A stretch of 64,000 nucleotides of DNA, from positions 396,009 to 460,008 of the forward strand of contig KL197722.1 of NCBI GenBank assembly GCA_000697665.1. Direction: 5' to 3'. Made by a program: the position numbers and the translations under genes. The DNA is from Jaapia argillacea MUCL 33604. Its lineage: Eukaryota; Basidiomycota; Agaricomycetes; Jaapiales; Jaapiaceae. Position 1 is the stretch's first letter. Every line of letters starts with the position of its first letter. Below the pieces are notes generated by a model. It worked only from the letters and a program-made list of their open reading frames with translations. It did not search any database and was not told the DNA's origin. Shown in pieces: positions 29,050-64,000 of the stretch.

Positions 29050-32000
29050 TTAGAAATCGTCGGGCGAAAGGAATCGAGAATGCAAGATCTTCCCCAAATG
29101 TGTCGGCGTATATGTCATCCCTTTACGACGCAATCCAATGAGCTCCTTCAAGTATGGCAGAGGACTATGGGTGAAGGGCGAGTTAGTCCTGTTCGTGAGC
29201 CTTCGGCGATGTTCTGGGTTGATGAATCCGTCGCCCTGCCACTGGATGCCATCAACCGACTGGAGGTCTGGAGTATAAATGCCCAAGAATTCGCAAAGCA
29301 GCAGATAGGCTTGATAGTCTGCCACGTACAATTGACCAGCACAGAGATTGAGCTGAGCCACCAGGATCGGTTCCGGGGCAACCCAAGATGGGGGTGTCGG
29401 CGGAATGCAATGAAGTTTCAGATCATCGACTGGCTCCATCGCTTGCGTTACCCTTGGCGTGTACTGGTGAAGGTGAACCTTTCTGTACTGTCGGATCTTG
29501 GGAAGCAAATCGTTCGCCTCATAAGGACTGACAATTACCAGGACCAATGAGCCCCCATGAGAGCTAGAAATTATCCACTGAACAGGTCGGAGATAGTCGT
29601 TGAGGTATATGGATGAAGTTTTGACGGAGGTTAGGAAGTCGTCCGTTGCGAGCAGTCTCGGTGACCATGGGTCTTCATGAGCTCGTCGGGCACCGCTCAA
29701 TGGGAGGAAGGGACTCCGGAACGCGGGAGAGCCGCGCGGAAGCACACCCGAAACGACAAACTTGTCAACGTCTCGGTGAATCTTGTGAGGGGCGGCCGTC
29801 GCTTTGGGGGGCCTCTGAACTTGTTGTTCTCGTTCCATTTCATGAGCAACTTCTCTCTCCTGCTCCTCATCCGTTCGTTGATGCGACAACGATGACGTCC
29901 CAAGCAGCATACAGCGGTCGTGGATTTCAGGAATATCTAAACTGAAGTTATGAAGCGCAGTTTCTGACGAGCCTTGAATGCGGATGTTTGGAATCCCATA
30001 CATGGACTCCAGCTCTCTAGCCTCTGGCAGTACCCATGCACGTCCCAAAGCCGTGAGGGAGGCATCGTTGGATGTTGAGAGCTCTTTCCAGGCGCTGTTT
30101 CGCCTGAAAAAGTCAACGCCTTGCTGGGCCCAGTGTGGGGCCTGGCGTTGGATATCGGTGCAAGTTTCAAGCATTGTCCACCTTAACACATCTCGACTGC
30201 TGACTTGTTCAGAGGGCTTGCGGGCGGCTTCCCGAATCTTTCGATCAACCTCCAAGGGTGCAAAAAACATCACGGTTTGGCCAAAACCCAGTTTTCGCAG
30301 TCGCATACAACCTGGAATCACAGGTCAGTGAAATCAAAGCATCATTAATTCAGGAACTCACCCTGGATCAGTCGATCCTTTGTCACTTTTGGACCCAAGG
30401 TGACTGCAGCTCGAGAATCCCTGGGAAGCTTGAGATCTGTGCCTCTTGTGTGTGCATCATCCAGATACACTACACATTTATCCAGCTGCTGATTATAGGA
30501 TGACGAAACGAACGACTCGATCGTACCATCTCGAGTGATCACCACAAGATCATCGTCATCGTCAAAGAATACTGCAGCCTGGACTTCAAGCAACATCGAC
30601 AGCCAGTGTTTGGCCACCTGGCAGTTCGTCATCTCCAAAATCTGCGCTCCAACATCCAACAGGACCCTGATTTCGGGGGTTTGCCGAACAACAAGCTCGA
30701 GGAGAGCTTTCCCTGAGATGCAACCACCTGCACCAACGCTCGGACAAATGTAGGAATTGTTCTCTGGTCGCAGGAGGTAAGTCATGACCTTCGCATTCGT
30801 ACTCAACTGATCCAGCGGATCACACTGGGCAATTGAAGTTGGTAAGAGGTACTGGTTCTCATTGGTGCCACTGAAACCAGTGGTGAAGTGACTCTTGGAG
30901 CATGCCATATCCCAGCTCGAAGTCGTCAATTTCTCAGGAAATTCTTTGGCTTCCTTCGGAAAAACGACCTGTGATAGGTAGAAGTCGATGATAGCATGGT
31001 TTCTTTGGAAGTGGGGAACTAGGATCTCTTTTCGCAGCTCAATATCCTTGAGGTTCACTCCGCTCAGTTGGTGTAACCCCTCCGGCATAGAGCTGTCCGC
31101 TCGAACCCAGCGATCATATTCGAGCTTTGGGTTGTCGAGCTTGAAAAGACGATCAAAGCAGACGTCGAGATCATCTTCAGATAGGCCTCCATAATAGTAA
31201 CTCATGCAGGTAAGCAATATTGCCACGTCAGGATGGCCGAATTCAGCCCGGGGCGATGGAACGTCTTTGGCCCTGTATGGAACGGCCAATAACGAGCGAG
31301 CCAGATGCAGGCCATAGTCGACACGCCACCTTCGTTCTCTCAGAACGTACAGAAGAATGCCGTGGCCAAACAATCCTCGGAGTAGTAGGAGACTCTTCCA
31401 CAGCCCAGTGTCACCGCAGAATTCCTCCATTGTACCAGCTTCGTCATCGGCAATATTTTCGCATTGGATGAAGCGTGCGACAACCTGACGGGCGTCGTTG
31501 GGAAACGCCTCAAAACAGCAGTTCATGAGGCCTCCGGCCATAACATCTTCTACGACGGCTGCGATCAGTGCCTCCCCAGCATCTACCTCAAGAATGCGAA
31601 TGGACGGATGGCTACCACACTGAGTTGTGGTAACGTCTGCTCCAGATGGATATTTTTGTTGAATGCGGGGGGCATGCTTTCTAACCAGAGCGAAGACTTG
31701 CTGAATGGTTGTCCAACGGTCAGGATGGTGCTCTAGAGGCCGTGGTTCACCTCGAGTGTAAATCAACTGGAAATTTGATCGTAATATCTCGTCACTTTCA
31801 TCGAGGACGTCTCGTGAGTGCGACTCGAGCCACAGTTGGGAGTCCAGCAAATGTTTGGCAATGTTGCGTTCTTCGCTGGATTTGGCCGACAAGAGCCGAT
31901 CTATGCCCATCAACTTGAAAGATAGGATGTGCTCCGGCTGTACTACCAGAACGCCGCGAACTTGCATGCATGTCTCGTAAAGGCCACGGACGTGTAGGGA

Positions 32001-35000
32001 TGCCTGCTTCGATGCCACCGCTACGGAACGCGAGAAAGGTAGATAGAAAATCTGCCGGTTTGTGAGACCGCTCAGACGTTGGACCAGTAATTGGAACATT
32101 TGATTCGCGAGGGGTTTGAGAACCACTACCCTGGCCAGGCACAACCCATCGGCTAGTGTCGAGGCCACCAAGGGTACGATGACAGATGTCTTTCCTTCGC
32201 CCATGTTGAGTTGCAAGACCATATTCTGCCTCAATGAAGGAGAGATCATCTCCTCGGCCACACGAAGCTGAAGAGGTCGAGCTAAGAAGTCCCCGTCGAT
32301 CTGTACACAATGAAATTAGTCGCGAAAATTGTTAGGATACGACAGTCTTACCTGAATCAACAACCAGTCGGGGGGTACGACAGAATATTCATCTAGGCTA
32401 CCCATATTCTCCAATTCTTTCATTAATTCCTCTCTGTTCCCCAGCAGGTAGCACGAAATCAAACGCTGAGATCGCTGATTCAATATCGTGGCCGCAGCGA
32501 AGGCCGATAATGTTCGTCTCCATTGACTGGTCAAACGCAGACACGACGTCAGTGCTAACTGCCGTAGGAGACTGAGGGTGGTGATGCGTGGCCAAACACC
32601 GGCTGTGAGCGCCGCATCGTGCAAGCTGTTGGAAGGCGATAGCGACCGGCGTATCAAGGAGAATAGGTGTTCGAAATGGTCAACGCATACTTTTCTGTGA
32701 AAAAGCAAATCCTCCAACGAATACGGCATAGGTAGGATCTCTAGGGCTTGAAGGCTCCGCTCAAGCTTCTCTCCATAAAGTCGGTGAAGGGAGGACGTCG
32801 AGTTCGACTGAAAATCGTCGATTAAAGAACGTAGGTCGCTGGTGGGAACGGCGGTGTGGTACCCTCGTTGTGCGGGGGGTACTCCAAGAGTTTCGGGAAG
32901 TGGAGGGGGGTCAGGAGCGTCACACTCGAAAAGCCATTGAATGGTCACAGTGCCCGATTTTGGGCTGCAAGTCGAGGGCGGGGCTGAAGGAAGTCGACGA
33001 TGGAAGATGTAGGCACGAGCGGAGTATGCGGTGGAGTCCCGTGCGTCATCGAGTACTTTCTCGACTTTTTGAAGATATCTGTGAAGGTCGGCGTTGCGGT
33101 ACCAGGCCAAAAACAATGGGCGGATAATTCCGAGTAATCGATGGATGTCCAGGAATTTGAATCGGGTGGATGGGCAAGAGGGTTCCTCGCAGGGCCATTG
33201 CGCCATCAACAAGTCCGTTGCCTTCTCAGCCTCTGATTTGCAGGATGATTCGTAATGAGAGTAGCGTCGACGATTGTATTCTGCTTTCGTTTCATGGTCG
33301 AGCTTTTTGATCTCACAGACTAGGTTCTCTTTGAAAGTGACGGCACACGACCCAGCAATGTCCAGCAATTCTCGTTTACGTGGACTAGTGCCTCTGGCAA
33401 AATCATATGATGGCCACGGAGGGGGGTGGATTGCACGAAACTGAGGAACGGTCGCGAAAGACAACAACGTGGGTACGAAGGTTCGCACTTGCGCTCGATT
33501 TGGGCCATATGCCATTGCGCACAATGTGAATGCGAGTTGGAATTCGCTTTGTGCTGTCCTACAAAGACAATAAAGCGTGAGCCATGTTTGGCTGAGATCT
33601 TGTTCCATCCAGTCACGGCAATAGGATAGGGTCACTTGGGAGTCGTTCCGAGGGCCAGAAATGTCACCCCATGTCTTGAATGTATCCAGTATATGGAAGG
33701 ATGTTGCCAAGTATAACGGCTGACGGAGTATCATGCTGGAAAAGTTCGCCGCAAGGGATTCCTCCTCAGTAGTACTAGTGTTGAGAAAATCTCTGGAAAT
33801 ATATTCGACATCTCCCGCGCCCAATTCCAGGTTGTCAGTGGGACCCCGTGGGTAGTAATTTGCGTTACGGAGGCTTGCGCGCCGTAACAGCACAGTCGAG
33901 GCCGAAGTGGTGCTTCGGTTCGAAGGGGAATCTGCTGCATCGGACTTGTTTACTTGTAATATCCGCAGGCTTTCAGCATGATGTCTTGCAGAGTCCGATA
34001 AGGCGTGGAACCCATGATGCTGAGCCAGGGGGGAGAGTTCATCCCACCAGTTGGTCTTCTGCATGGCTTTGAGATGAGATGGATAATATTCTCGGATAGG
34101 TGTCAGCGAACCGATCCGACGAAGGAGCTCGGAAGCACTTTCATCGAGTTTCTGAAAGGATCGACAGCTGGCAGAACTCATCTCACGAAGAGCCTCCTCC
34201 GTTCCCGTGTATCCCGTTAAAGGATCAGGGAGACAATGACTGCTGACAGCGTGCAGGAGGACCTTATAGAGCTTGCCACCCAGGCTAACATTGCCCACGA
34301 GTCGACCAAGATGAGGGTCAACTGCGTATTGATGAAAACGAACATGATTTTGCGACCCAGTGTCTACCGTGACGTGGACGTGGTGAGAGTGCCTCTTAAC
34401 CCGAACCTCGCCAATGGGAATGATTAAACATCGGGAGGGTAAGGTCTTGGTGCCGACGGGCAGATTGTCTCGCAAGACTAGCCGACTCCGCAGCCCAACA
34501 AAGGACCCAATTGATTGATCCTTGTCAATTACCCTTCCAGATAAATTGGTACACTCCAACTCTTGTCTGTCGTTCAAAAAGAACGATAGGCGGTAACGAT
34601 GAAGATCAATCGAAAAGGACGACTGGGTGCCGCAGCAGGTGGCAATGAGGTATTCTGGAGATTCTATTGGGCGAAATATGGATGAGACCATCTTGAAGGT
34701 GGGACTGCGGACATCAATAAGTTGAAGTGTTTCATGAGGTGCCTTTCTGTGCATGACTGAGGCGCCATAGGTCGAGAAATTTGTCCACCAGTTATCAGGT
34801 GAGGAGGACCAAAGACTATCCAGTGGTCGAAACTCCATTTCCCCGGATAGCAAGTCCAACCAATGCGCGCGGTGCTCGACCAGCAGGTGCGGGAAATCAC
34901 CTCTCATGACAGCGTGAGGGATAAGTTGCAGTTGTTGGGCGCCTCTCCTTGTCCGTATCAGAAGATCTTCTCCATCTTCGAGCCTGAAGTACACCTGTAA

Positions 35001-38000
35001 TGGTCGTCAGGGAACGACTAGCTGACCGAGATTCGAACACAAGCATACCGTGTAGCCGTAGACCAGCGAACGAGTTGCAAAATCAAATCCCGCGAGATCT
35101 GAAGGAATAATATCAAATATTTTCTTGAAAAGAAAGGTCAGGGATGCGAAACTCAGAGTCGACGAGATCGCCAACTCACTCCACCGAATATCCGAGCATA
35201 CGTTGGGTGATTTACAATAGTTTCCGGTAGGCGACCCAAAGGCTTTCCATCGACGAGCAACTGACCATTGAGAAGATTAAGATGGACATGTTGAGATTCA
35301 CCATCCACACTCGCCGTGGACGAGGAAATCCATTGACTATTGGGAGATGGGAGATGAAGCCAAGTAGATCCGGGTCGGTATGCAGGCCACACAGCATTGA
35401 CGGCCTTGTCAAGTGTGGTGCGGTCTGCATGAATGCGTTCGCGGAGCAAAGGCTCTAGTGAATGGGACAGACGACGGTCACGAGCCAACAGTTTCTCCAT
35501 GTGGATAGGCACCGATTTCCCTCCAGAGGGTGTATTCTCAAATACGACAATGCCACACTCGATTGCAATTGCCACGTCGTGGATGGACTCCATGACAATA
35601 GGCATATGAACGGGGCCGATATCGTAGGTGCTCCGGCAAGCGGCCGCAACTTCACAGACGCGTAACTGAAATTCTTTGATCACATCGTCTGCCTCGCAAC
35701 CCTGTAACTTCGTAACCAGCTGACGCATCCACCTCAGTGAGGTCTCCCGAGCCAACTGAAGAATAGGATAAGATGCTGCGATAACATCAGGATCTGAAGT
35801 GGCGACCAAAATCCGCGAAATAAGGATAATGATGATCCTCATCGTCACCGTCTCCAACCAGTTCGCCTGAATGCTGGATAGTAGGCCTCGCAGTTGTCTA
35901 AGCAAGGCGAGACCGAACTGTGAGCTAGTCAGATCTACATGCCAATCCCAGGCGTCATCCGGCGATAGAGGTCCAATTTGCCATATAGCCATTGCAGTGA
36001 GAGTAAGCACTTCTTCTCGGTGAAAGCTCAACGACCTGGCTGTGATCTCTCTGAGTATGTTCATCCATTGTAGCCGATGACCGCTGCGCAAGCCCGCGAA
36101 GGCGATGTACTCGTGCAAACTGAGGTCGCGATGACAATCGGTCTGATTCGCCAGGATATGATTGGAAGTGTGGTCTGTCCCATCGAGAGCGTATTGAAGG
36201 TTAAGGTATGGGCTCGCTTGTGGAAGGTGAAGTTTGCAGGATTCTCCGGTGTCACAGTTGGAAAATGGATGTTCCAGGAAAGCCTGCAATGAGATATCGA
36301 ACGGCGCGAGCTGGAGTGCGTTGTTTACGCAGACCTCCGTCTCCCGAGCAGGGATCGCGGGCTTCTTGTAATGGGAATTGAGAAAGGACTTCGTCAACGA
36401 CCCAAGTGTAATTCGCCTTATTCTGTCACCAGAGGCAAATTTTCTCAAACCCTCGTAATGTCGCAATTCAACCTTGGCAGAACAATGTATCATCCAAAGT
36501 CTGCGAGGTGTACAAACATCGTGCAGGATCTTGTACGTCATCTCTCTCCAGACGGCGAACGGGACCGGGCATGCAAGCTCGAACACAGCGGTTTTTGCAT
36601 GCAGTTCATTCTTCGGCAACGGCCATTCGTGGGGTGTGATGCTTTGTCGCGCAAGCCGCTCGTAATTGCACTTAGAGCACTGCTTCTTCGCATGACGAGT
36701 GTCTCCACGCTCAGTGATGGAATATTGGTGCGATAATTCATCCGCCTTCGCCATATTACTGTGGTATCGAGCGTTCTTCTCTTGTAACTCCTCCAGCTTC
36801 CTCTTCTTGTCCTCCTTAGCTGAGGTTTCGATGCGTGATTTGAGATGCTTGAGCTCGAGGGAAGCTTCGAAAAAGCGAACGGGAAAAGAATCCGGGGCAG
36901 TGGAGCCCGAGAAGACGGATCCGAGGCGGCCAAACCTGTGACGCCAGCGTAGGTAGCCGATGATTGCTGATGCCCGAGTGATGGATTCGGCCGTGCGCAG
37001 TAGAAGGGCCTCCAGGAGTCGAATTGGAACGTCTGGCGAATAATCTCTCAGCAAGGGACACTGAGCAACCGCCAACTTGTCGAGGGCCATCCACAAGTCG
37101 AAAAGCGTGAGCAGCATGATTGACCAATCCTCCGAATTCGGCGTGTACAGCTCTTGAGCTGCCTTGTAATACTCTGTGATCCAGGCAGCCACAGTGGGGC
37201 AAGCGGACTCATCAACGAGGTGATTTTCAACCCATTCATCGATTCCACCCTGAATTCCCTCCTCGAAGTCGGCTAGCGGAACAAATGAATTGCCAGAGAA
37301 GGCAGCAGAGAGAGTGGATGGCGTCAGACTCTCAATACCACGAATTCGAGGGATAACTTGCGGGGGCGTGAATTTGAACAACTTTGGTTTGATGGGGCCG
37401 GGCCTCATCACCTTGGTGAGATACGCTCTGCTGTTAGATAGGGAGAGCTGAGTGTCGGCGATAATATCGAGTTGATGGGGACGCCAATCCGCCGACGCCA
37501 TTTGCTCCCGCTGGACAGCACTCCACCTTTGCTGCAATAGCGCCCCTACCGCTTCCCCGATGGTTTTTGCTTCGGAAAGCACAAACCCGGGTGTTGAGGA
37601 ACCCAGCTTGAGGAGGCGCCGAGCGACCTTCGCTCTCATGCAGAAGAGAACGTCGCTCGCGTAACCCTGATCCAACGCAGCCCGTAAGATGCGAGCCATC
37701 ATGAAGATCATGAATGCCTTGTATTCGGTGTGATCGTTGCCATTCTCGCAAAGCGAGGTCTGCAACGCCACACGGATGACAAGCCAAAGAGGCGATCTTC
37801 GCCATGGCAGCTTTACATCATTCCACAACACCTCGTCGGCAATCCTCTTCCGAATGCGATTGACGTCCTCCGGCGCTCCCATCCCTCGAAGGATTCCGGT
37901 GAGTAATTGGGTGATGTAACGAGGATGAGGGGTATCTCTCGTCTCGACAACAGCCGACCGCGCTTTTATGGTTGTTGGAGTAGAGTCGAGGACATCGACG

Positions 38001-38568
38001 TCCATGTGGCTTAGGAACGAGGACAATTCTTCCTGAAATGCACGGTCCTCCACGATGTCGTTGGGAACGGCGATGGCGGGCCCCGGATAGGAGCACAGCA
38101 ATTTTCCCTCGGTCTCCATAACGCTCGCGTTAGGCGGAGACACTTCGAAGGACTCAAACACAGTCTTATTCACGAATTTACGAATGATGAGCCCAGCGTT
38201 CTGAGCGCGAATCAAAAGTACAACGATATCTGCGATCGGGACAATGTCTCAGAACCGCAGTAAAAAGGAGTGGATGTGAGACAATGAGACACACCTCCTG
38301 GCCCCATCCTCTGAACCGATGCCAAAATATCCTGAGTGGCGAGGGCACTAAATCTCTGCGACGTCTTTAAATTCTCCAACATCCTTACGATTGGCGCCCA
38401 TCGGAGCTGAGCTTCGGGAGAGAGCGACTTTGAGTACGCCTTGGCACACTCCATGGTCCGCTCGCAGAGAGCGAGGTCATTCGCCTGATGTTGATCGTCC
38501 CCTTGGGGCAGCTTGGGCGGTAGAAAAACGTGGTGGACAATGTAGTCCAAAGAGTTTGGGCGGTCCAT
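29050..38568 (-). CDS. giant DUF3638/DUF3645-type protein with SecA-like ATPase core, copy A
   Basis: Six exons (38295-38568, 35180-38229, 35049-35123, 32352-34994, 30362-32300, 29050-30311) join without a stop to 3080 residues. The N-terminal start MDRPNSLDYIVHHVFLPPKL fits the DUF6606-type beginning of this fungal family. A coiled coil (about 551-590) precedes a conserved CxxC (CSKC, 609-612). A family block HEYIAFAGLRSGHRLQW lies at about 797-813, and SHCLPDPLTGYTGTEEAL near 1385. The ATPase part has Walker A NMGEGKTS (about 2046-2053), Walker B-like LDESDE (about 2180), VPYRAKDVPSPRAEFGHPDV (about 2354), TRGTDLKL (about 2632) and RLRKLGFGQ. This order resembles SecA-type SF2 translocases. 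Databases often label such proteins ubiquitinyl hydrolase; I see no clear protease site. Function is unknown. It is the most diverged of the copies here. Confidence 0.88.
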
Positions 38569-38677
38569 GGTCACACAGACTTTGAATCGATATACTAGCA
38601 ATATTTGGAGATCAGATGTGTCTGGGTGAGGGCGTTCAAGAACAAGAAGGGATGGGGACCCACATTATCGTATTTCC

Positions 38678-38685
38678 ATTATATA
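38678..38685 (-). promoter_or_regulatory. TATA box of giant gene copy A
   Basis: TATATAAT on the minus strand lies 110-117 bp upstream of the ATG at 38568. Copy D has a TATA box at nearly the same distance, which supports both the promoter and the chosen start. Confidence 0.6.
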
Positions 38686-40149: not shown

Positions 40150-40980
40150 GGGTGGATGACTTTTATCAAGTCAGTGGATCAGGATAGTACAGGACTCCCT
40201 AGGAATCCTCACTTTCTCGAGGAGATATATTGGTCTCCCGGAACCCTTTCAACATTGTTCGCTTTCGGTTTCATCAACCAGATCTGTTCTTCTCTCCTCT
40301 TACTCCAGTTTGTCGTTTATTCGGTCTCATCGTTCAGGCGGCTCACGTTGCGTCAACCACCAGGCACATTTCCACCGCATACCGAACGTCATGATCACCA
40401 ACTCAAGTTACTGAAGTTTGAAATTTACGCCATCACCTCCAGCAACAATGACCAAGTCACCGCACCGCCAACGCCATTCTCTGTCTCTCGTCGAATCCTG
40501 CCCTCTCCTAACAATGCTGGCACCCATCGCTGAGAACAGAACCTGTCAGGAGAGGGATAGGGCGTTGCATGGCAATGGTGCCCTTGACATGATTTGAAAG
40601 GGGTTATCGAAGGGCGAAGACGAACACGAGGTTGACTCTGGGTTACATTAAAACAACTGTGAGTCGCCATTTTTGAGTTTCTCATATACCTCTCTTGCTA
40701 ACCTATCAACTATATAGTCCTGCCCTAGCATCGGTGATGAGTCAATGATATTCCCATATCTATCTGCCCCAACTTTATCAACTCTCAACTGTGTTCGACC
40801 CCCTCAATCTTCGCATCGAGAATCAACCCTTCGGCGTCTGGAACGCTGTCTAAAACACGAAGAAAAGCACGGCCGCAGATGTGAGTTCGTATTCACACAT
40901 TTTTGGCGCTCATGTTCCGAGTTTGTATGTATAGATGGCTTGGAAGTAGGAGATGTCTACGGTCAGACCGATCATGTCTA
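40150..40980 (+). pseudogene. decayed 3' half of the metallophosphoesterase gene
   Basis: The segment is collinear with the intact gene at 26487-28627. Matching blocks are GTGGATGA..CTTTCTCGAG (40150-40220, compare 27480-27540), CATGATCACCAACTC (40391-40405, compare 27973), CAGGAGAGGGA.AGGG (40548, compare 28157) and GATGGCTTGGAA (40934, compare 28613). The catalytic N-terminal half is missing and the remaining frame has stops and indels, so it cannot encode the enzyme. It lies just beyond the 3' end of copy B, as the intact gene does beside copy A. It therefore looks like a relic of the duplicated unit. Confidence 0.75.
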
Positions 40981-40999
40981 ATGACGGCCGACCAATTTG

Positions 41000-41386: not shown

Positions 41387-44300
41387 TCAAAAGTCCTCCT
41401 CTGAAAGGAACCGAGCGTGCAAAACTTTACCCAGATGGGTCGGCGCATAGGTCATCCCTTTGCGACGCAGCCCGATCAACTCCTTCAAGTACGGCAAAGG
41501 ACTATGGGTGAATGGCGAGTCAGCTCGATCGGTGAGCGCTCGGCGATCTTCTGGTTTGATGAATCCATCACTTTGGACCTTGATCTCACCGGCTACTTGA
41601 ATCTCCTGTGTATAGATGCCCAAGAACGCGCATAGTTGGAGGTATTCTCCTTGATTCGCGAGGTACAGTTGACCGGCACATAAATTGACTTGGGCCCGTA
41701 GAATGGGGTCAAGAGCACCCCATGATATAGGGACAGCCGGAGAACAATATAGCTGTAGGTCGTCAACTGGTTTCGTCGCCTGCATGACTCTTGGAGTGTA
41801 TAGGTGGAGGTGCACCTCCTTGCTTTGCCGGATCTCTGGGAGCAGCTCGTTTACCTCGTAAGGGCTGACGAGAACCAGAACTTTTGAGGCTCCCTGGGTG
41901 GTGGATATTATCCATTGAACGTGTCGCAAGTAATCTCCGAGGTAGTGGGATGAGGACTGTATTGTCTGCATAAAGTCCCGCGTCGCCAGTAGGTCCTGCG
42001 ACCAACCGTCATTGCTACGCTCCGCGTGAGATCCGGCTGCTTCACGTAGAAGCGGAAATGCACCACAAAATGCAGGTGAGTTTCGGCGAATGACACCATC
42101 GCGTACGAGGCAGCGAACATCGGCGTGGGTAGAGTGATTCGCAGCTGCAGCTTTGGGGGGTCTCTGAACTTGCTGCTCGCGTTCAATCTCATGGGCAACT
42201 TCTCGCTCCTGCTCCTCCTCGGTGCGTGCATGGGAGAAGGATGTCACTCCGAGAAGTTCACACCGTTCCCGTATTTTGGGAATTTGAAGCGCCATCTCGC
42301 TCAACGGAGAACCTCCGGAGGGTGCGTAAGCGGAGTCGGCGATCCCGTACATGGCATCCAGCGTACTTGCTTCCGGTTGAAGCCACGCAGCTTCAAGATT
42401 CAAAATGGAGGAATCTGACGAAGAGAACTTGAAGTTGCTCCAGGCTTTGTATCGCCGGTCGTAGTCAACCCCTTGTTGAGCCCAATGGGGGATGTGATGC
42501 TTGATATCGGCGCAAGTTTCGAGCATAACCCATCGGAGCACGTCGATACTCCCAATTGATCCACGGGTGCTCTTCAACGCGGCCTCTGCAGCCTCCCGAA
42601 TCTTTCCATCGACTTCCGGGGGTGCGATGAACATCACAGACTGGCCAAATCCGAGTTTTCGCAGACGCATACACCCTTGAGAGAAACTAAGTCCTGATTA
42701 ATTTTGACTAGTAGACAAGAAACTCACCTTGAGTTAAACGATCTTTCGTCACCTTTGGACCCAGTGTGACGGCAGCCCGATAATCGCGAGGGAGTTTTAG
42801 GTCAGTCCCTCTAGTGTGCGCATCGTCCAGATAGACGAGACACTTGTCCAGCTGCGAATTGAATGATGACGTGATGAACGATTCGGTTCTACCGTCCTGA
42901 GTCACCACTGCCAGGTTGTCGTTTTCATCGAAAAAGATCGCTGCAGGAACATCCGACCTGAGACGAAGCCAACACGTGACGAATTCGACGTTCCTCATAT
43001 CTAAAATCTGCGCTCCGACGTCCAAAAGTACTCGGATTTCGGGGGTCTGAGCAATTATCACTTCCAGCAGTTGTTCCGCAGACATCCTTTCACCAGGTCG
43101 ACTTGGGGGACAAAGATAATGATCGTTCTCGGGTTGAAGGAGATACGAGAGCACCTTAGCATTGGTGCTCAATTGGTCGAGAGGATCACATTGAGAGATC
43201 GAGGTCGGCAAGAGATATTGGTTGTCGTTGGTGCCGCTGAAACCGGTAGTGAGATGACCGTGACGCTTCTCTTCGGCAATATCCCAACTCGAAGTGGTCA
43301 GCTTTTCGGGGAATTCTTTCGCCTCCTTTGGAAATACCACCTGTGATAGGTAGAAATCGACGACTGCGTGATTGTGGCAAAAGTGCGGGATCAGCTTTTC
43401 TCTTCGCTGCTCGACATCCTTGAGGTTCACTCCGCTGAGCTGGTGAAGACATGCCGGTATAGAACCGTTCGCTCTCGTCCAGGCGGCATATTCGAGTGCG
43501 GGGTTATCCAGTTTGAAGAGTAGCTGGAAGCATACATCTAGCTCATTTTCTGTCAAGCCTTGATAGAAATAGCTCAAGCAGGTAAGGAGGATGGCCACGT
43601 CTGGATGTCCGAACTCAGCCCTTGGCGCAGGGACATCTTTCGCGCGGTAGGGAACAGCTAACAAGGAGCGAGAGTGGTCGAGGCCGTAATCCACTCTCCA
43701 TCGTCTGTCTTTCAGGGCGTATACGAGTATTCCATGGGCCAACAAGCCGCGCAGTAGTAGGAGGCTTTTCCAGAGTTCGCCGTCTTCGCAATACTGCTTC
43801 AAAAGGTGCGACTCTTCAGAGGGCACGTTCAGGTTGCTGATGAACGTTCGAGCCATGCGACGCAGTTGACCGGACAAAGGAGCGAAACAGCAGTTTGATA
43901 GGTCGCCGCTGACCACAGCATCCGTGATTCTTGAAACGAGAGCATCGCCGGCGTCGGATTTGAGGATGCGGACAGAAGGAAACCTGCCCCGATCAACGTC
44001 TCCTATTTCTATCCCGGACAGAAATTGGGGCTGCAGTTGAATCTGAGGCGCATGTGTGCGGACGAGTGAAAGGACCTGCTGGATCGTTGTCCAACGATCT
44101 GGGTGATGCTCCAGCGGCATTTGCGGTCCTCTAGTGTAGATGAGCTGATATTTGACTGCAAGTATTTCGTCACTTTCATCCAGGATGTCTCGTGAGTGGC
44201 GCTCAAGCCAGTGTTGGGATTCGACAAGCTGCTTGGCGATTCCCTGGTCGTCCGATCGCCTCGACAAAACGGTGTCAATTCCCATCAACTTGAAAGAGAG

Positions 44301-50300: not shown

Positions 50301-50894
50301 CTTTGTCGGTAGTTGGTGCGGAGTCGAGGATGTCCACATCCATGTGCGCAAGGAAGGAAGAGAGCTCTTTGAGAAAGGAGGACTCTTCAACTATCTCACG
50401 GCGGACGCCAATAGCGGGCCCTGGATAGGAGCACAAGAGTTTCCCCTTTGTCTCCATGACCTTCTCGTTCGGAGCAGAGACTTCGAACGATTCAAAGGCG
50501 GTCCTATCAACGAACTTGCGCACCAAAAGTCCCGCGTTTTGGGCTCGAATAAAGAAGGCCAGGGTGTCTTCGAAAGAAGTTGAGTTGGAGATGGAGAAAA
50601 TTTGACATAAAACACACCTCCAGGTTGCATCCCCGCAATAGAGCTCGAAACATCATCGGCAGCGAGGGCGCGGAGCTTGTGAGCAGATGTTAAGTTCTCT
50701 AACATCTTCACAATCGGCGTCCAACGCTCTTGAAGATCAGGAGACAACAATTCTTTGTACTCGATAGCGCAGCGAAGCGTCTGATCGCAGAGTGCAAAGT
50801 CATTGCTGGCATCGTGATCATCTTCCTGCGGCAGTTTCATTGGAATAAAAACATGATGAATGATATACATCAACGTTTTGGGAACGTTGGGCAT
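41387..50894 (-). CDS. giant DUF3638/DUF3645-type protein with SecA-like ATPase core, copy B
   Basis: Six exons (50618-50894, 47518-50567, 47385-47459, 44723-47335, 42728-44672, 41387-42675) join without a stop to 3082 residues. Intron positions and phases equal those of copy A, and exon 2 has the same length (3050 nt). It starts MPNVPKTLMYIIHHVFIP. Kept motifs are CQKC after the coiled coil, HEYIAFAGLRSGHR, SHCLPDSLTGTTGTEEAL, NMGEGKSS (Ser in place of the Walker Thr), LDESDE, VPYRAKDVPAPRAEFGHPDV and TRGTDLKL. The ATG lies one base from the assembly gap, so its promoter is not in the sequence. It is much closer to C and D than to A. All structural motifs suggest a working gene. Confidence 0.86.
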
Positions 50895-50895
50895 G

Positions 50896-50915
50896 NNNNN
50901 NNNNNNNNNNNNNNN
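50896..50915. other. assembly gap (20 N)
   Basis: Twenty undetermined bases join the first codon of copy B to the interior of exon 2 of copy D. If D is a full-length paralog, about 7.8 kb of its gene plus the B promoter are missing here, so the gap length is probably nominal. Confidence 0.95.
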
Positions 50916-51698
50916 TTGAGGAGCTGATGCTCACGTGACGTCTCGAAATACCGCACAGCAAAAGAATCCCGGCTCATGGTCGTCGCAAATACAGACCAGC
51001 CCGGCCTCGAACGCTCATGGCGACCTCGCAGGTACTTGACGATGGCGACCAAACGGGCGGTAGACATAGCTTTTCGGAGGAGGAGGGGTTCAAGGAGGTC
51101 GACGGAAATTTCAGGGGAATAATCCTCCAAGAGCGGGCATTGCGCCACTGACAAGCGGTCGAGGGCGACCCATAGCTCGAACAGGGTCAACAGCATGACG
51201 GACCAGTCCTCGGGATTGGAGTCATAGAGTTTCTTGGCAGCGGAGGAGTATTCGTCAATCCACTTGGACACGGTAGTACACGCAGCCTCATCGGCCTTAA
51301 CGTCCAGGTGGCGAGCCACCCAATCATCGATACCGATTTCGACGGCCAACTCGAAGTCCGCCAGTGCGATAAACGTGTTCTCCTCAAACGCTGTGGCAAA
51401 GCTGGAGTGATTGAGGGACTGAAACCGAGGAAACTCATTTGGTTCGAAAGACGTCGATGAGGGATCAATGGAATCCTGCCGCAAGATCTTCGAGATATAA
51501 TCTCTACTGTTATCGAGCGATATATGGGTATCTGCGATGAGGTCGAGATCTTTAGGGCACCAGGGTGGAGAGGCCTCTTGCCTCCTTTGCACGGCTTCCC
51601 ATCTATTCTGTAAGAGTGTCTGCGTCCATTCCACACTTTGCTCCACCTCTGAAACCACGAACTGTGGCGTAGAAGAGCCGAGCTTGGACAAACGCCTG
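50916..51698. repeat. 783-bp tract with no visible difference from copy C (62845-63627)
   Basis: Read base by base with a constant offset of 11,929, the two tracts show no difference until 51699/63628 (A versus C). The tract ends at the assembly gap. Confidence 0.85.
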
Positions 51699-52633
51699 AT
51701 TAGTTTCGCCCTCATGCAGAAAAGAAGATCGCTCGGAAGGCCTTTTTCCGAAGACCTCCGCAATATGGTCGACATCAGATAGAGCATGAAAGACTTGTAC
51801 TCGGTGTGGCTGTTGCTCTCTCGGTGAAGGGAGGTTTGCAACGCCACACGAATTACAAGCCAAAGGGGCGATCTCCGCCAAGGGAGCTTTGCGTTGTCCC
51901 ATAAGATGTCATCCGCAATCCTCTTTCGAATGCGAGGGACTTCCTCGGGTTCACCGATGCCCCGAAGGATGCCGGTGAGGAGTTGAGTGATGTAGCGAGG
52001 ATGTGCAGTATCTCTGGTCTCGATGACAGCTGAACCTGCTTTTTCGGTAGTTGGAGCAGAGTCAAGGATGTCGACGTCCATGTGCGCAAGGAAGGAAGAG
52101 AGCTCTGTGAGAAAGGAGGAGTCTTCAACTATCTTACAGAGGACGCCAATAGCGGGCCCTGGATAAGAGCACAAGAGTTTCCCCTTGGCCCCCATGATCT
52201 TCTCGTTCGGAACAGACACTTCGAACGATTCAAAGATGGTCTTATCGACGAACTTGCGCACCAAAAGTCCCGCGTTTTGGGCTCGAATGAGGAAGGTGAG
52301 AGTGTCTTCAAAAGAGAACTGAGTTCGATATGTAAACAATTCAACATAGAACACACCTCCAGGTTCCATCCTCGCAATAGAGCTTGAGACATCGTCGGCG
52401 GCGAGGGCGCCGAGCTTGTGAGATGATGTTAAATTCTTTAACATCTTCACAATCGGCGTCCAACGCTCCTGAGCATCAGGAGGCAACAACTCTTTGTACT
52501 CGATAGCGCAGCGAAGCGTCTGATCACAGAGTGCAAAGTCGTTGCTGGCATCATGATCATCTTTCTGCGGTAGCTTCATTGGAAGAAAGACATGATTAAT
52601 GAGGTACATCAACGTTTTGGGAACGTTGGACAT
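50916..52633 (-). CDS. giant DUF3638-type protein, copy D, 5' fragment cut by assembly gap
   Basis: Exon 1 is 52357-52633 (ATG, MSNVPKTLMYLINHVFLP) and exon 2 runs from 52305 to the gap. Together they give 555 residues of an expected about 3080. The frame is open and reaches the start of the coiled coil (SREHQLL). Exon 1 has exactly the length of copy B exon 1 (277 nt). Intron 1 (52306-52356) is 51 nt and stop-free. The last 783 bp before the gap look identical to 62845-63627 in copy C. It carries the same three-residue insertion as C (HLDVKADEAACTT) where B reads HLNVEAACTT. Whether this is a fourth paralog or an assembly artefact cannot be decided from the sequence. Confidence 0.75.
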
Positions 52634-52745
52634 GATTGAGAGTTGACGAGCTGAGAATAGGAAAAGTTGGATAGTTCAGTTTATGTCTCGACGACGAGGG
52701 CGTAGAAAAACAAGAAGAGACAATCACCCAAAAGCCCTTGTCCCA

Positions 52746-52753
52746 TTTATATA
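52746..52753 (-). promoter_or_regulatory. TATA box of giant gene copy D
   Basis: TATATAAA on the minus strand lies 113-120 bp upstream of the ATG at 52633. The spacing matches that of copy A, although the surrounding promoter sequence differs. Confidence 0.6.
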
Positions 52754-54659: not shown

Positions 54660-55075
54660 GGCGCTCGACCGAACACCCTTCGGCGATTCTCCTATGGATT
54701 TGAATGCAATTCCTACTACGTGCTATTGTGTGATCTTTCGGGCCTGGATCTATACGAAGTTGTCAGTGACTTATGGATTTCGCGTGTCGGAGACTTGGCC
54801 TACGTCCACGGGGACCCCTCACAAATTTTGAGCCTCGGGAACGACGTGGAGTCGAATTTGGACAGAACATAGATCATTTCTACATATCTCAACTCTAGAC
54901 GTACACAATATACAATGTCTCCTGAGTCGTCTCCAATACATAGTCCCACTCGAAATCGCGTCCTTGCGCTACTCTCCTATGGCAGTTAAGGTCTACAATC
55001 TTCGCTTTGAGATGGTCATAACAATCAGCATCTTCTCGTGCCTTGTTCGGTCACACCGAGGGGTGACTCACTTTA
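54660..55075. repeat. downstream flank of copy C, paralogous to 41000-41386
   Basis: Same blocks as in the flank of copy B, including GTACACAATATACAAT and GGTCATAACAATCAGCATCT. The final stretch before the stop codon is nearly the same in both. Confidence 0.8.
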
Positions 55076-58000
55076 TCAAAAGTCCTCCTCTGAAAGGAAC
55101 CGAGCGTGCAAAACTTTACCCAAATGGGTCGGCGCATAGGTCATCCCTTTGCGACGCAGCCCGATGAGCTCCTTCAAGTACGGCAAAGGGCTGTGGGTGA
55201 AAGGCGAGTTAGCCCGATCGGTGAGCGCTCGGCGATGCTCTCGTTTGATGAATCCATCGCTCTGCCACTCGACCCCACCGGCCTGTTGAATCTCTTGTGT
55301 ATAGATGCCCAAGAACTCGCAGAGCTGTAGGTAGGCTCTTTGATTTGCCAGGTACAGCTGACCGGCACATAGGTTGAGTTGAGCCAGCAGAATTGGGTCG
55401 GGAGAAACCCACGAGGTCGGGATAGTAGGAATAGAGTAGAGCCTCAGGTGGTCAACTGGCTTCATCTCCTGGGTTACTCTTGGGGTGTAGAGGTGAAGGT
55501 GCACCTTTCTGCTTTGCAGGATCTTCGGGAGTAGTTCGTTCACCTCGTAGGGGCTGACGATTACCAGGACTTTCGAGCTGCCATGAGTGCTGGAAATGAT
55601 CCATTGAACGGGTCGTAGATAATCTCCGAGGTAGTGGGATGACTCGGAGATGTCTATTGTCTGGATGAAGTCCCGCGTCACAAGTAGTTCCTGTGACCAA
55701 CCGTCATGGCTAAGCTCCGTCTGAGATCCTGCTGCTTCGCGTAGAGGCGGAAATGCACAACAAAATGCAGGTGAGCTTTGACGGATGACACCATCGCTTA
55801 CGAGGTAGCGAACATCGGGGTGGATAGAATGTTTCGCAGCTACAGCTTTGGGAGGTAGCTGAACTTGCTGCTCGCGTTCAATCTCGTGGGCAACTTCTCG
55901 CTCCTGTTCTTCCTCGGTGCGCATATGGGAGAACGATGTCACTCCGAGAAGTTCACACCGTTCGCGTATTTTGGGAATTTGGAGTGCCAGCTCGCTCAAC
56001 GGAGAGTCACTGGAGTGTGTATCATCGGAGCCAGGGACCCCATACATAGCATCCAGCGTGTTCGCTTCCCGCTGGAGCCAAGTTTCTTTAATATCCGAAG
56101 AGGAAGAATCGGTCGAAGAGAGCTTGCTCCAGGCTTTGTGTCGGCGGTCATAGTCAAGTCCTTGTTGAGCCCAATGAGGGACGTGGTGCTTGATATCGGC
56201 GCAAGTTTCGAGCATAGCCCATCGGAGCACGTCAATACTCCTAACCGGTCCAGAAGTTTTACCGTGCGCGGCTCCTGCAGCCTCCCGGATCTTTCTATCG
56301 ACTTCCAGCGGTGCGATGAACATCACGGACTGGCCAAATCCGAGTTTTCGCAAACGCATACAGCCTTGAGAGCAGATAAGTCTTCTTTTACTACCGCAGC
56401 AACGAAAAACCCACCTTGAGTTAAGCGATCTTTCGTCACCTTTGGACCCAATGTGACGGCAGCCCGATAATCACGAGGGAGCTTTAGATCGGTCCCTCTG
56501 GTGTGTGCATCGTCCAGATACACAAGACATTTGTCCAGTTGCGAATTGAACGATGACGTAATGAACGATTCAGTTCCACCGTCCTGAGTCGCCACTACCA
56601 GATTATCCTTTTCATTAAAAAATATTGCCGCAGGAACATCTGGCCTGAGACGAAGCCAATGCGTGACGAATTCGTCATTCGTCAAATCCAAAATCTGTGC
56701 TCCGACGTCCAATACCACTCGGATATCAGGGGTCTGGGCAACTATGACTTCCAACAGTTGTTCGCCAGACATCATTTCACCAGGCCAAGTTTGTGGACAA
56801 AGATAACAGTCGTTTTCGGGCTGCAGGAGATATGAGAGCACCTTGGCATTGGTGCTCAGTTGGCCGGGAGGATCACGTTGAGAGACTGAGGTTGGTAAGA
56901 GATATTGGTTGTCGTTGGTGCCGCTGAAACCGGTCGTGAGATGATGCTTCACTTCGGCAAGATCCCAACTCGAAGCGGTCAGCTTCTGGGGGAATTCTTT
57001 CGCGGCCTTCGGAAATACCACCTGCGATAGGTAGAAATTAACCACTGCATGATTTTGGCGAAAATGCGGGATCAACATTTCTCGTCGTTGTTCGCCATCC
57101 CTGGTGTTCACTCCGCTGAGCTGACGAAGACATTCCGGTATAGAACTGTTCGCTCTGATCCAACATGCGTATTCGAGCGCGGGGTTGTCCAGTTTGTAAA
57201 GTAGCTGGAAGCACGAATCTAGCTCGTTTTCTGTCAAGCCTTCATAAAAATAGCTCAAGCAGGTAAGGAGGATGGCCACGTCAGAATGTCCAAATTCTGC
57301 CCTTGGGGAAGGAACGTCTTTTGCGCGGTAGGGAACGGCCAACAGGGAGCGAGAGCGGTCGAGGCCGTAATCCACTCTCCATCGCTTGCCTTTCAAGGCG
57401 TACACAAGTATCCCATGGGCCAACAGGCCACGGAGTAGCAGGAGGCTTTTCCAGAGTTCGCTATCCTCGCAATACTTCTTCAAGATGTGGGACTCCCCAG
57501 AGGAAACATTCATGTTGCCGATGAATGCTCCGGCCATGCGGCGCAGTTGATCGGGCAAAGGAGCGAAACAGCAGTTCGATATTTCGCCATTGATCACGGC
57601 CTGGATGATTTCTGAAACCAAAGCTTCACCGGCCTCCGATTCCAGGATGCGGACAGATGGAAAGCCACCCCGAGGAAGGTGCCCCATTTCTATTCCGGAC
57701 GGAAACCGTCGTTGAATCTGAGGTGCACGCCTACGGACGAGTGAAAGGACCTGCTGGATCGTTGTCCAGCGGTCTGGATGGTGCTCCAGAGGTTGTTGTT
57801 CTCCAATGGAGTAGATGAGCTGATACTTCACTGCCAAGATTTCGTCGCTTTCGTCGAGGACATCACGGCAGTAACGCTCGAGCCACCGCTGGGAATTGAT
57901 AAGCTGCTTGGCGATGGCTTGGTCTTCAGATCTCTCGCTCAACCCCATGTCAACCCCCATCAGCTTGAAGGAGAGAATGTGCTCCGGCTGCACAACTAAT

Positions 58001-61000
58001 ACGCCATTGACTCGAAGGCAGTGTTCGTACAGATCTTGGATGTGCTGTACTTGGCGAGAACCGACTCGAAGGGACCGAGAGAAGGGCATATAGAAAATCT
58101 GTCGGTTCGTAAGACCGCTCAAACGTTCAACAAGGAGCTGAAACATTTGATTGGCCAGGGCTTTCAGCACAACGATTCTCGTCAGTTTCGTGCCATCAGC
58201 GAGAGATGTGGCGACCATAGGTACGATGACGGACGATTTTCCTTCACCCATGTTGAGCTGGAGGACCGTGTTTCTGGAGGAGGGAGGGTCAAGCATCTCC
58301 TTGGCGATTTGGATCTGAACAGGGCGCGCAAGGAAATCCCCGTCAATCTGGTGAAGGAAGCGTCTGTCAGCCTCGCATAGTCAATACTGGAGATGTGCGC
58401 ACCTGAATCAACAGCCAGTCTACATTAAGTGCGGAGTCACGGTCGAAGCAACCAACGTTCTCCAACTCTCTCCAAACGTCTTCCTTCTTCCCCAGGAGGG
58501 CACATCCAAGGATTCGTTGTGATCGCTGATAGAGAAGGAGAGCCATCGCAAACACTGACAGGATGTCTTTCCAAGGAGTTGTGAGGCTTATTCCACATGT
58601 TGTAGCCAAGAGCGCTAACACAGATCGACGAGTGATGCGGGGCCAGAGGTGGGAAGTAAACACCACCTTCTCAATAGGAGTGGAGGGGGACAAGGCTGAC
58701 AATATGGACGCAAATACTTCTTGAACATACGCTCGGCACTTTTCATAATGAAGGACAACCTCCACAATGGAATATTCCTTCCTTGGGTGTGGGGAACTGG
58801 TATGGAGTGCCTCCAAACTTTTCATGAGACCCTCTCCGTAACGTCTGGGAAAACGATCCGAACTGCTCTGGAACTCCGAAATAAGTGACTGTAGAGCAGG
58901 CGATGCGCTCGGAGCTCTTAGGATGTCCGGGAGAGAACCAGCTTTGGGTGTATTTCGCTGAAGGAGGTGTCTCAATGTCAGCCGTGAGAGGGGCGAAAAC
59001 GGAGCCGTTCCAATAGTGGCAATAGTGCAAGGAGTGAAGCTGTATTTCGGAGGAGAGTTTGAGATGGGTTGAAAAGATTGATCTAAGACGTTTTGCACGG
59101 CGAGTATGTGTTCGTGGAGGTCTGCATTAGAACTCCATGATCGAAACAAGGGGATGGCTCTGCCCATCAATATATTCGTGTCAATGAATTTGAAAGACCC
59201 TGTCGATGGGAAAGTGGGTGTCGGACAGGGCCATTGCGCCATCAAGAAGTCAACGATCTGAGTGGTTTCTGATGAGAGCGAATCCTGGTAGCTTGATTGG
59301 CGCCGGTGTTCATAACTCGGGTCTGTCTCCCGGTAATTCCTTTGGATGTGGGATGCGGGACTCTGTTCCATCGCGATGGCACATTCCCGAGCAAGCTGCG
59401 ATAATTCCTGTCTTTTTGGGTAGACACCCTTTGAAAGATCATAAGATGACCAGGGTGGTGGATGTATTGAGCGAAACTGGGGTAGGGTTGCGAAGGCCAA
59501 TATGGTGGGGATGAGATCATGCACCTCCAGCCGGTTTGGGCCATACGCCATCGAGCACAGTGAAAACATCACTTCGTAGCGGGTGCCACCATTCCGGCAC
59601 AAGTCATATAGCGTTACCCAAACCTCGTTGAGGCCTTGTTCCATCCAGTGACGCCTGTAAGACATCGTCAAACTGGTGCTCTGTGAGCCCGAAATCTCTT
59701 GCCATCCCGTCAAGGTATCCCACAGTTGGCGGGAAGTGTTCAACCGCAAGGGCCAATTATGTATCATGGCCGAGAATTTGCATGCCATCTGCTCCCCCTC
59801 ATCATCGTGATTGCCGTCGAGAAGATCTTGCGATACGTAGACCAAGTCTCCGGAATCTGAGGAAACGATATCCGTAAGCTCCGGCGGATAGTAGATCGCA
59901 TTTCGACGAGCAGCACGATCCAGCAACAGAGGAATCAAAGGTAAAGCACCACTATCAGAGCAACATCCAGGTCGCTGAAACACGCTCAGGGAAGCGGCAT
60001 GCTGTTTGATCGTTTCCACGACAATCCAGAACCCATCATGCTGGGCGGTCGACGGCAAATTCTCCTCCCACTTGGTGCTCTGCATCACCTGGAGGTGGAT
60101 GGGATAGTACACTCTTCGAGGTGTGAGAGAACTGATTTTGTCGAGAATCTCCATGGCATCATCATCGAGGTTTTGGAACGACTTGCATCGAGCAGAGCGC
60201 AATGCAAGAAGGGCCTCCTCCGTACCGGTCGTCCCAGTCAAAGGATCTGGCAAGCAATGGCTGCTAACGGCGTGGAGATGGACTTTATACAACTCACAGT
60301 CCAACGCAACACTGCCCACGAGGCGACCTAGGGTCGTATCGATGTGATATCTGTGAAAACGGACTCGACGTTGGAACTTCGTATCCACAGTGATGGTGGT
60401 ATGATGTCCATTTCTTGCGGTGCGCACTTCGCCAATGGGAATAATGACAGACCGAATGGGTGAAAGGCCATCATTTATGTCTATCTTTCGGAGGATTAGT
60501 TGGCTTTCGAGTCCGAACATTGTTCCCGTAGATTGATTAGGATCAATAACCATCCCCGGCAGATTCTGGCACTCGAGATTACCATGGGTATTGAGGGAAA
60601 ACGAGAGGCGGAATCGAGGAAGGTCGATGACTAGGGACTCTCCGACTGAGTTGCAGGTGGGCATAAGATATTCCTTGTACTCCAAGGGCTCCAGGCAAGC
60701 AGAGATCATCGCAAACGACGGGCTACGGATATCGATGAGACGAATGGAAGTTGCTGTCTTCAGGATCAGAGGATGATCTACACAGAAGATCATTGTCCAT
60801 TCTTTGGTCGCAGAGTCCCATGGATTCTGCAGTGGACGAAATTCAATTTCTCCGGTCGAAACGTCCATCCAGTGAGCATAATCTTGAACCAACAACTTTG
60901 GGAAATCCCCTGTAATTACTTCATGAGGGATGAGTTCAAGAAGTCGTGAATCGTGTTCAGCTCTGATAACGAGGTGAGTCCCGTCCCGCAAAGTGAAATT

Positions 61001-64000
61001 GACCTAGATAGCCTTCAGCATATTATTCTCACCAGATACTATTTGGAACGCACCTGATGGTCAAAGACAGAACTTCTGGTAGCATAATCGAATTCGGGAA
61101 GTTTGGAAGGTACAACGTGGAAGACTTTCTACAAACCCATTGTATTGTCAATCGGTGAGAGAGACCTGTAACTAATCAACATACCTGGCCAAATATCCGA
61201 CGGTAGGTAGGATGATTTATGATAACAGGTGGTAAGCGACCAAGCGGTTTTCCGTCAATGAGCATTTGTCCCGCCAGGATATCAAGGTCCACATGCTGTG
61301 GTCTCCCCTTAGCGCTACCCTCTGTGCTCGAGGAGAACCATCGGTCTTCGGGAGGGGAGCGACGTCTCCAGTTGGTCCCAGGTTGATAATCGGACCAAAG
61401 AGAGTGGATGGCTTTGTCTATCCCGGCACGGTCCTGCCCAATACGCAGGGAAAGATGTGGCTCCAAGAAGTGAGCGAGGCGATGATCGCGCGCCAGAATT
61501 CGCTTTAGATCGGCGGACATGTTGCTTTGAGGTGGTGTATTGTCATGGACGATGATACCACACTCGAGAGCTATTGCAACGTCTTCCGGTGAAATCAAGA
61601 GGGGAAGAATGTGGCATACTCCTACATCATACGAGCTTCGACAGGTCGCAGCTGCTTCACAGAGGCGCAATAAAACCTCCTGGTTCTCGCTTTCACTATG
61701 TTGCGCCATATCGGTCAGCCGACGGATCCACGCCAAAGTTGCGTTCCGAGCTGCCCGGAGCAGTTTGTACCCAGTAGAGGCAATCACAGGATCTGTTGTT
61801 GAAGCCAAAAGACGACAAGTCAAAGCGATGACAGTTCGCATCGATGCTAATTCCGCCCAGTTGGCCTCAATGGTCCGCAATAGGTCTTGGAGTTGATCGA
61901 GTAAAGCCCGAGCGAACTTGACACTCCCCAACTCCGCATGTGATTCCCATACATCGTCATTTGATAGGGGTCCAATCTGCCATGCAGTTTGCATCATTAG
62001 GAGGTGCACTTCCTCCCGATGGAAACTCAGACATCGTGACAAGAGTTCCCTCAAGATATTTGGCCATTGGAGGCGGTGACCGCTGCGCAAGGTGGCAAAG
62101 GCGATGTATTCGTGGAGATTGAGATCGCGGGAGCAGTCAGCTTGATTGGCAATGACTTGATTTGACGTATGAAGAGTTCCAGTCACAGAGTACTGAAGGT
62201 CTGTGTACGGCCCATCCAGTGGAAGCTGGAGTGTGCAACCGGGTGTCGTATCACAACCGGCGAATGGGGCATCAATGAATGACTCTGAGATAGTATCAAA
62301 TAGGACCCATGAGAGACCGTTGTTCAGGCATGTGGCATCAGCGGTGGAGGGGAGCGCATGATCCTGATAATGAGAATTTAAAAAGGATTTGGTCGTGGAT
62401 GCCAATGTAATTCGCCCAACATTGGTGCGAGCTTGAATATAATCCTGAAGTCCAACGTAGTCTGCTATCTCGATTTTGGCTTCAGAATCTGACTGGGAAA
62501 GCCTTTGATGCATGCAAGATTCTCGGAGAAGGCTGTAGGTCGTGTCTCTCCAAGTGCGGAAAACCAAGGGGCATGCGAGTTCGAACACAGTGGCTCGTGC
62601 TTCGAATAAATTACGGGACAGGGGCCACTCGTGCACTTTGATCCGCAGCTCAGCTGCCTCACGTTCAAGAGCGCACTTCTCGCAATTCCCGGAGTGACGA
62701 GTCCTGCGCGCCCAACAGTCATAGTGATATTGGTGAGACAATGAGCGGGCTTCGGTGGTGAGCCTCCTGTATTGCGCATTCATTTCCTCAAGCTCTCTGA
62801 GCTTGGCTCCTTTCTCGACAGTTGCATCCATTTCGATACGACTCTTGAGGAGCTGATGCTCACGTGACGTCTCGAAATACCGCACAGCAAAAGAATCCCG
62901 GCTCATGGTCGTCGCAAATACAGACCAGCCCGGCCTCGAACGCTCATGGCGACCTCGCAGGTACTTGACGATGGCGACCAAACGGGCGGTAGACATAGCT
63001 TTTCGGAGGAGGAGGGGTTCAAGGAGGTCGACGGAAATTTCAGGGGAATAATCCTCCAAGAGCGGGCATTGCGCCACTGACAAGCGGTCGAGGGCGACCC
63101 ATAGCTCGAACAGGGTCAACAGCATGACGGACCAGTCCTCGGGATTGGAGTCATAGAGTTTCTTGGCAGCGGAGGAGTATTCGTCAATCCACTTGGACAC
63201 GGTAGTACACGCAGCCTCATCGGCCTTAACGTCCAGGTGGCGAGCCACCCAATCATCGATACCGATTTCGACGGCCAACTCGAAGTCCGCCAGTGCGATA
63301 AACGTGTTCTCCTCAAACGCTGTGGCAAAGCTGGAGTGATTGAGGGACTGAAACCGAGGAAACTCATTTGGTTCGAAAGACGTCGATGAGGGATCAATGG
63401 AATCCTGCCGCAAGATCTTCGAGATATAATCTCTACTGTTATCGAGCGATATATGGGTATCTGCGATGAGGTCGAGATCTTTAGGGCACCAGGGTGGAGA
63501 GGCCTCTTGCCTCCTTTGCACGGCTTCCCATCTATTCTGTAAGAGTGTCTGCGTCCATTCCACACTTTGCTCCACCTCTGAAACCACGAACTGTGGCGTA
63601 GAAGAGCCGAGCTTGGACAAACGCCTGCTTAGTTTCGCCCTCATACAGAAAAGAAGATCGCTGGGAAGGCCTTTTTCCGAAGACCTCCGCAATATGGTCG
63701 ACATCAGATAGAGCATGAAAGACTTGTACTGGGTGTGGCTGTTGCTCTCTCGGTGAAGGGAGGTTTGCAACGCCACACGAATTACAAGCCAAAGGGGTGA
63801 TCTCCGCCAAGGGAGCTTCGCGTTGTCCCACAAGATGTCATCCGCAATCCTCTTTCGAATGCGAGGAACTTCCTCGGGTTCACCGATTCCCCGAAGAATG
63901 CCGGTGAGGAGTTGAGTGATGTAGCGAGGATGGGTAGTATCTCTGGTCTCGATGACAGCTGAACCTGCTTTGTCGGTAGTTGGTGCGGAGTCGAGGATGT
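55076..64000 (-). CDS. giant DUF3638/DUF3645-type protein with SecA-like ATPase core, copy C (5' end beyond window)
   Basis: The gene enters at 64000 inside exon 2 and runs to a TGA at 55076-55078. Exon limits are about 61184->64000, 61055-61129, 58405-61003, 56420-58349 and 55076-56364, with the same intron positions as in A and B. Reading frames are open throughout. Motifs present are CEKC after the coiled coil, HEYIAFATLRSGHRLQW, SHCLPDPLTGTTGTEEAL, NMGEGKSS, LDESDE, VPYRAKDVPSPRAEFGHSDV (Ser instead of Pro), TRGTDLKL and RLRKLGFGQSVMF. The first exon and about 250 nt of exon 2 should lie just outside. The 5' part is a mosaic: 62845-63627 equals copy D, while 63732-64000 equals copy B (50065-50333). 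Confidence 0.85.

Follow-up and report, generated by a model that had tools for sequence, protein, structure and literature searches.

A tandem array of three giant DUF3638/DUF3645 genes in Jaapia argillacea, apparently old and constrained, with motor motifs in a SecA-like order

DUF3638 proteins are giant, eukaryotic and without a known job. In Hypomyces perniciosus, DUF3638, with nine genes, ranks in the top five of the expanded annotations by abundance (PMC6627653); a table of lineage-specific genes from an Aspergillus oryzae strain holds a DUF3638/DUF3645 gene and also a HET gene (PMC6237848); a large gene family of microsporidia has DUF3638 as a domain (PMC5423893); and two DUF3638 genes are reported from Tetrahymena in a paper that describes the domain as common across eukaryotes but its mechanism as undefined (PMC12615304). 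The passages of these papers that deal with the domain give it no function, as the first-pass annotation of the DNA studied here had also stated, and they place lineage-specific expansion of DUF3638 in fungi already in print. Full-text searching of one literature library returned no mention of DUF6606, PF12340 or five other accessions. Here, we analyze a 64,000-nucleotide stretch of the Jaapia argillacea MUCL 33604 genome (the window; bases 396009-460008 of contig 14, KL197722.1), in which three copies of one giant gene of this family stand in tandem; the genome searched comprised 43.7 Mb in 95 contigs.

The tandem array is real but fairly ordinary, and its family, though uncharacterised, is a known one. 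New here are a likely assembly artefact within the array, the age and constraint of its copies, apparent gene conversion at the 5' end, and a motif-level link to SecA. Our preferred reading, to which we assign a probability of roughly 0.45, is that of an old array of three paralogues (A, B and C) that would encode superfamily 2 (SF2) polymer motors laid out like SecA, with a short family fragment (F) upstream of B being B's own 5' end.

From position 29050 rightward, the three copies follow one another head to tail, all on the minus strand, and their introns sit at matching positions, as the first-pass annotation had described; their spliced frames, with introns placed by aligning the copies, contain no internal stop. 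The array comprises the following features.

38568 to 29050, minus strand: gene A, from ATG (38568) to stop (29050); 3,080 amino acids, 9,519 bp, six exons
38295-38568, 35180-38229, 35049-35123, 32352-34994, 30362-32300 and 29050-30311, minus strand: exons of gene A, introns predicted
50894 to 41387, minus strand: gene B, from ATG (50894) to stop (41387); 3,082 amino acids, 9,508 bp, six exons
50618-50894, 47518-50567, 47385-47459, 44723-47335, 42728-44672 and 41387-42675, minus strand: exons of gene B, introns predicted
50896-50915, no strand: run of 20 N, the sole N-run in the window, one base upstream of B's ATG
50916-52675, minus strand: fragment F, with 555 open codons: ATG (52633), exon 1, an intron of 51 nt and the beginning of exon 2
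55076-64000, minus strand: gene C, stop at 55076; 2,903 amino acids visible, frame open to the window edge
61185-63998 (open), 61054-61128, 58403-61003, 56415-58347 and 55076-56364, minus strand: last five exons of gene C, introns predicted

The 14 modelled introns measure 49 to 65 nt and, as predicted from the sequence, are all GT-AG. The same six-exon structure had been ascribed to the long copies, and the complete ones had been said to read through without stops; this holds for A and B, and for C it holds as far as the window reaches, since exon 1 of C and the beginning of its exon 2 lie beyond 64000, while its five visible exons match those of A and B. The copies are spaced ~12.3 and ~13.7 kb from one to the next and are similar over the whole length of the gene, which excludes chance as the source of the array.

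Membership in the giant DUF3638/DUF3645 family, likewise claimed at first pass, is confirmed by Pfam matches above the curated cut-offs. DUF3638 (PF12340) scores 280 to 307 bits in all three copies against a cut-off of 31, and DUF3645 (PF12359) 67.8 bits in A and 68.2 bits in B against 25; in C, the conserved DUF3645 segment was recognised by alignment with the other copies. DUF6606 (PF20255) lies above its cut-off in A and B, and C has profile positions 164-266 of it within the window, at 155 bits. The order in A and B is an N-terminal DUF6606, a long stretch without an above-cut-off match, then DUF3638 and DUF3645. The array genes thus share all three domains, in the same order (A and B), with the described DUF6606-DUF3638-DUF3645 giants, from which no distinguishing trait was found; here they number three in tandem, with one relic elsewhere. 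In copy B, the domains and motifs of the putative motor lie as follows.

44037-44672, minus strand: DUF3638, first half of the motor (Pfam match)
44562-44573, minus strand: Walker A motif GEGK, computed from exon 5
44166-44180, minus strand: DESDE, computed from exon 5
43581-43679, minus strand: DUF3645, in the insert between motifs II and III (Pfam match)
43230-43238, minus strand: SGT motif
42801-42812, minus strand: RGTD, motif V type
42650-42667, minus strand: RLRKLG, in exon 6

The motifs GEGK[ST], DESDE, SGTN, RGTD and RLRKLG occur in the same order and are invariant in the three copies. SecA has a GEGKT-type Walker A, DE.D.IL, GT and RGTD in this order as well, and it, too, has a long insert separating motif II from motif III; in SecA, this insert is the preprotein cross-linking domain. 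The distance between the two motifs is 314 residues in copy B, 181 in SecA, 55 in UvrB and 31 in RhlE. When five windows around the motifs were chained in order along Escherichia coli SecA (NP_414640.1), the chain reached a score of 93, the shuffles averaging 67.7 (standard deviation, 7.8; z, 3.2), and 11 of 2,000 shuffles scored as high, the windows having been chosen post hoc by someone knowing SecA's motifs. UvrB (1,461 of 2,000 shuffles as high), RhlE (1,103 of 2,000), YbhF, ClsB, MoaA and YbhN do not stand out in the same test, the six ranging from 290 to 1,461 of 2,000. SecA differs from the array motors in lacking profile similarity to them, in its shorter motif spacing and in having GRSGR where the array has RLRKLG; the array proteins, moreover, are fungal and about 3,080 residues long.

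Each full-length protein would begin with a DUF6606 module, pass through a long and divergent middle into an SF2-type ATPase motor and end in a conserved C terminus. The motor would consist of DUF3638 and a second half, and the insert that separates motif II from motif III would bear DUF3645. Hydrolysis of adenosine triphosphate (ATP) would drive this motor, whose layout resembles that of SecA (a Walker A of the GEGKT type, DE.D.IL, a large insert ahead of motif III, and RGTD), to pull on a polymer or remodel it. The polymer would most likely be a polypeptide or a ribonucleoprotein; a polypeptide substrate is the weaker step. The N-terminal and middle parts may form a scaffold that chooses the substrate. 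A bolder version makes DUF3638 proteins a eukaryotic branch of SecA-type polypeptide motors in which the DUF3645 segment replaces SecA's substrate-gripping domain, the three copies split substrates through their divergent middles, and gene conversion keeps the N-terminal modules of B and C alike; this we consider a long shot.

Several results weigh against a SecA-like motor. Besides the post hoc choice of windows, only three of the five best single windows fell on the matching SecA motif (GEGKT, MTGTA and GRGTD). No SecA family appeared among the Pfam matches of nine exon proteins, including the motor exon of B, at E up to 10, and the DEAD family matched the first half of the motor below its cut-off, with 16.9 and 15.9 bits against 26 (E, 0.005 and 0.011). 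A motor profile built from three close sequences (effective number of sequences, 1.35) matched nothing in E. coli SecA, UvrB or RhlE, nor in the controls YbhF, ClsB and MoaA. A search of PDB by sequence gave four chance-level matches (E, 0.24 to 0.83) and a search by profile gave none. AlphaFold2 models were unusable, with a mean predicted local distance difference test score (pLDDT) of 41.2 for exon 5 (648 residues, three copies) and 42.1 for its first 214 residues; we think that a shallow alignment accounts for these low values. The epithet "SecA-like" from the first-pass annotation is fair at the level of motifs and not at that of family matches.

Could the motor instead be an RNA or DNA helicase of the DEAD/DEAH kind, with a likeness to SecA that is merely common to all SF2 motors? 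We regard this as unlikely, though it survives best among the alternatives. DEAD is the only wider Pfam match of the array proteins, and it covers the first motor half, but both scores fall short of the cut-off. The motif chains of RhlE and UvrB are no better than shuffled, whereas that of SecA is, and neither protein has an insert between motifs II and III as long as that of the array motors.

Fragment F raises the question of whether the array holds a fourth gene. F adjoins the run of 20 N, which separates it from B's ATG. Over the 1,156 positions at which F faces both B and the visible part of C, 107 columns are variable, and all 107 show only two versions. From the 5' side, these columns fall into three unmixed blocks: 12 in which B equals C, then 4 in which F equals B, then 91 in which F equals C; F and C are identical over the 783 bp up to the N-run. 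Three independent genes would be expected to carry private changes, so two versions in unmixed blocks point to a phase-switched assembly of two loci, the switches falling within the identical tracts that separate the blocks. Hence, F most likely represents the genuine 5' end of B, displaced by a mis-join, with no fourth gene, and the present 5' end of B probably belongs to C. The first-pass annotation had counted F as a separate piece of the family, a view against which the abutting 20 N and the two-version blocks speak. One observation runs counter to the mis-join: the 5' end of B and F differ by ~8 to 10% in exon 1, where C lies outside the window.

The alternative, in which F begins a genuine fourth gene that lost its body to an assembly gap and became near identical to C through very recent conversion or duplication, is doubtful. 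The difference between F and B in exon 1 and the identity of F and C over 783 bp would both suit it, and near-identical repeats often break assemblies. However, the 107 two-version columns in unmixed blocks would then require several very recent events without private changes, and the gap consists of only 20 N, whereas the other N-runs seen in this genome are hundreds to thousands of bases long. Among 20 further 10-kb stretches of the genome, five contain N-runs and none of these is 20 N long. If F is indeed the displaced start of B, the locus illustrates how an assembly can acquire a false "fragment" from tracts of near identity shared by giant tandem genes.

The divergence among the copies speaks to the age of the array. 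A is 56% identical in amino acids to B and C, with 0.36 nonsynonymous substitutions per site (dN) and saturated synonymous sites; B and C are 78% identical, with a dN of 0.131 and a synonymous rate (dS) of 0.532. Saturation between A and the other two copies, together with the dS of 0.53 between B and C, argues for an old array without a recent burst and does not support reading the proposed local amplification as a recent one. The dN/dS and recombination tests that the first-pass annotation had called for were run on B and C. Across the gene, dN/dS is 0.25 (95% confidence interval [CI], 0.22 to 0.28), which shows purifying selection, with 0.17 in the motor (residues 1950-2670), 0.28 in the most divergent stretch (residues 1250-1950) and 0.40 in residues 300-700. 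No 100-column window exceeds 1; the highest, 0.945 from B residue 594, arises because dS is low there. Residues 580-700 have a dN/dS of 0.67 (CI, 0.34 to 1.43), compatible with or without positive selection.

Synonymous differences between B and C are unevenly spread along the gene. Per 60-residue window, they range from 0 to 0.28 up to about residue 700 and from 0.13 to 0.50 beyond it, with 0.06 in the last window, and residues 172-282 have none at all. Compared with random orders of the sites, the longest identical run is significant for the whole gene (P = 0.0005); from residue 575, the signal is borderline (P = 0.06 for the longest identical run and 0.03 for the lowest window), and beyond residue 700, recombination is unsupported (P = 0.60 and 0.35, respectively). 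B and C thus look homogenised by gene conversion over their 5' ~2 kb, about the first 700 residues, and only there. Part of this homogenisation may be very recent, or due to mis-assembly, hence the lack of synonymous differences in residues 172-282. Judged from sequence comparison, then, the array is old, constrained and partly homogenised rather than freshly amplified.

A role of the family in conflict, be it defence or self/non-self recognition, in which diversity would arise from tandem copies and gene conversion, appears quite improbable. Tandem paralogues, one decayed relic and gene conversion would fit such a role, and the expansions reported in the passages cited above (the nine genes of H. 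perniciosus, the lineage-specific gene of A. oryzae and the large microsporidian family) lean weakly the same way. Against it stand the age of the copies, a B-C dN/dS of 0.25 with no window above 1, and the PADLOC library, a prokaryotic one, in which four exon proteins from copy B had no match (E up to 1). Least probable is a function in ubiquitin-linked protein quality control: some databases name DUF3638/DUF3645 proteins ubiquitinyl hydrolases, which would favor it, but neither a protease nor a ubiquitin domain appears among the Pfam matches (E up to 10) of the same nine exon proteins.

Genome-wide searches cover the readable sequence; N stretches, such as the 9,003 bases after the window that read N, are invisible to them. 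Within this scope, DUF3638 has three matches, all inside the array, and 14 control genomes have none. Exon 4 of B was located at three places in the genome; exon 6 matches those three genes plus a relic on contig 13 (L016:2499-5273). The relic matches B residues 9-850 and 2929-3082 in seven pieces, is interrupted by eight stops and frame changes, and lacks the middle. In the 278 columns common to these sequences, its identity to A, B and the fragment is 54 to 57%, compared with 67% between A and B. The DUF3638 genes found thus sit in one stretch of ~35 kb, so that the family could be removed as a block. At the sensitivities used, searches of viral contigs, bacterial and archaeal species genomes, phages and plasmids yielded no relatives. 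One candidate from a Clostridia record (L039) was rejected: it has 12 residues in common with the motor, by chance, and its long frame begins, in our judgement, like a pilin.

In the wider genome, HET has no matches, although the HET search gave none in any control either, and the FunK1 kinase family (PF17667) has 66. Together, these counts suggest an agaric-type basidiomycete. The rest of the window contains several unrelated genes. On the plus strand, RasGEF and PH matches lie in separate open frames at 1548-7729, perhaps one large signalling gene. On the minus strand, a 926-codon open frame at 10811-13591 has no Pfam match at E up to 0.01, and 18164-19399 holds a gene of the Carnosine N-methyltransferase family (PF07942; E, 1.1e-63). 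Beside the array, at 26760-28327 on the plus strand, a Calcineurin-like phosphoesterase domain is followed by an NAD-nucleotidase C-terminal domain in a 5'-nucleotidase-like gene.

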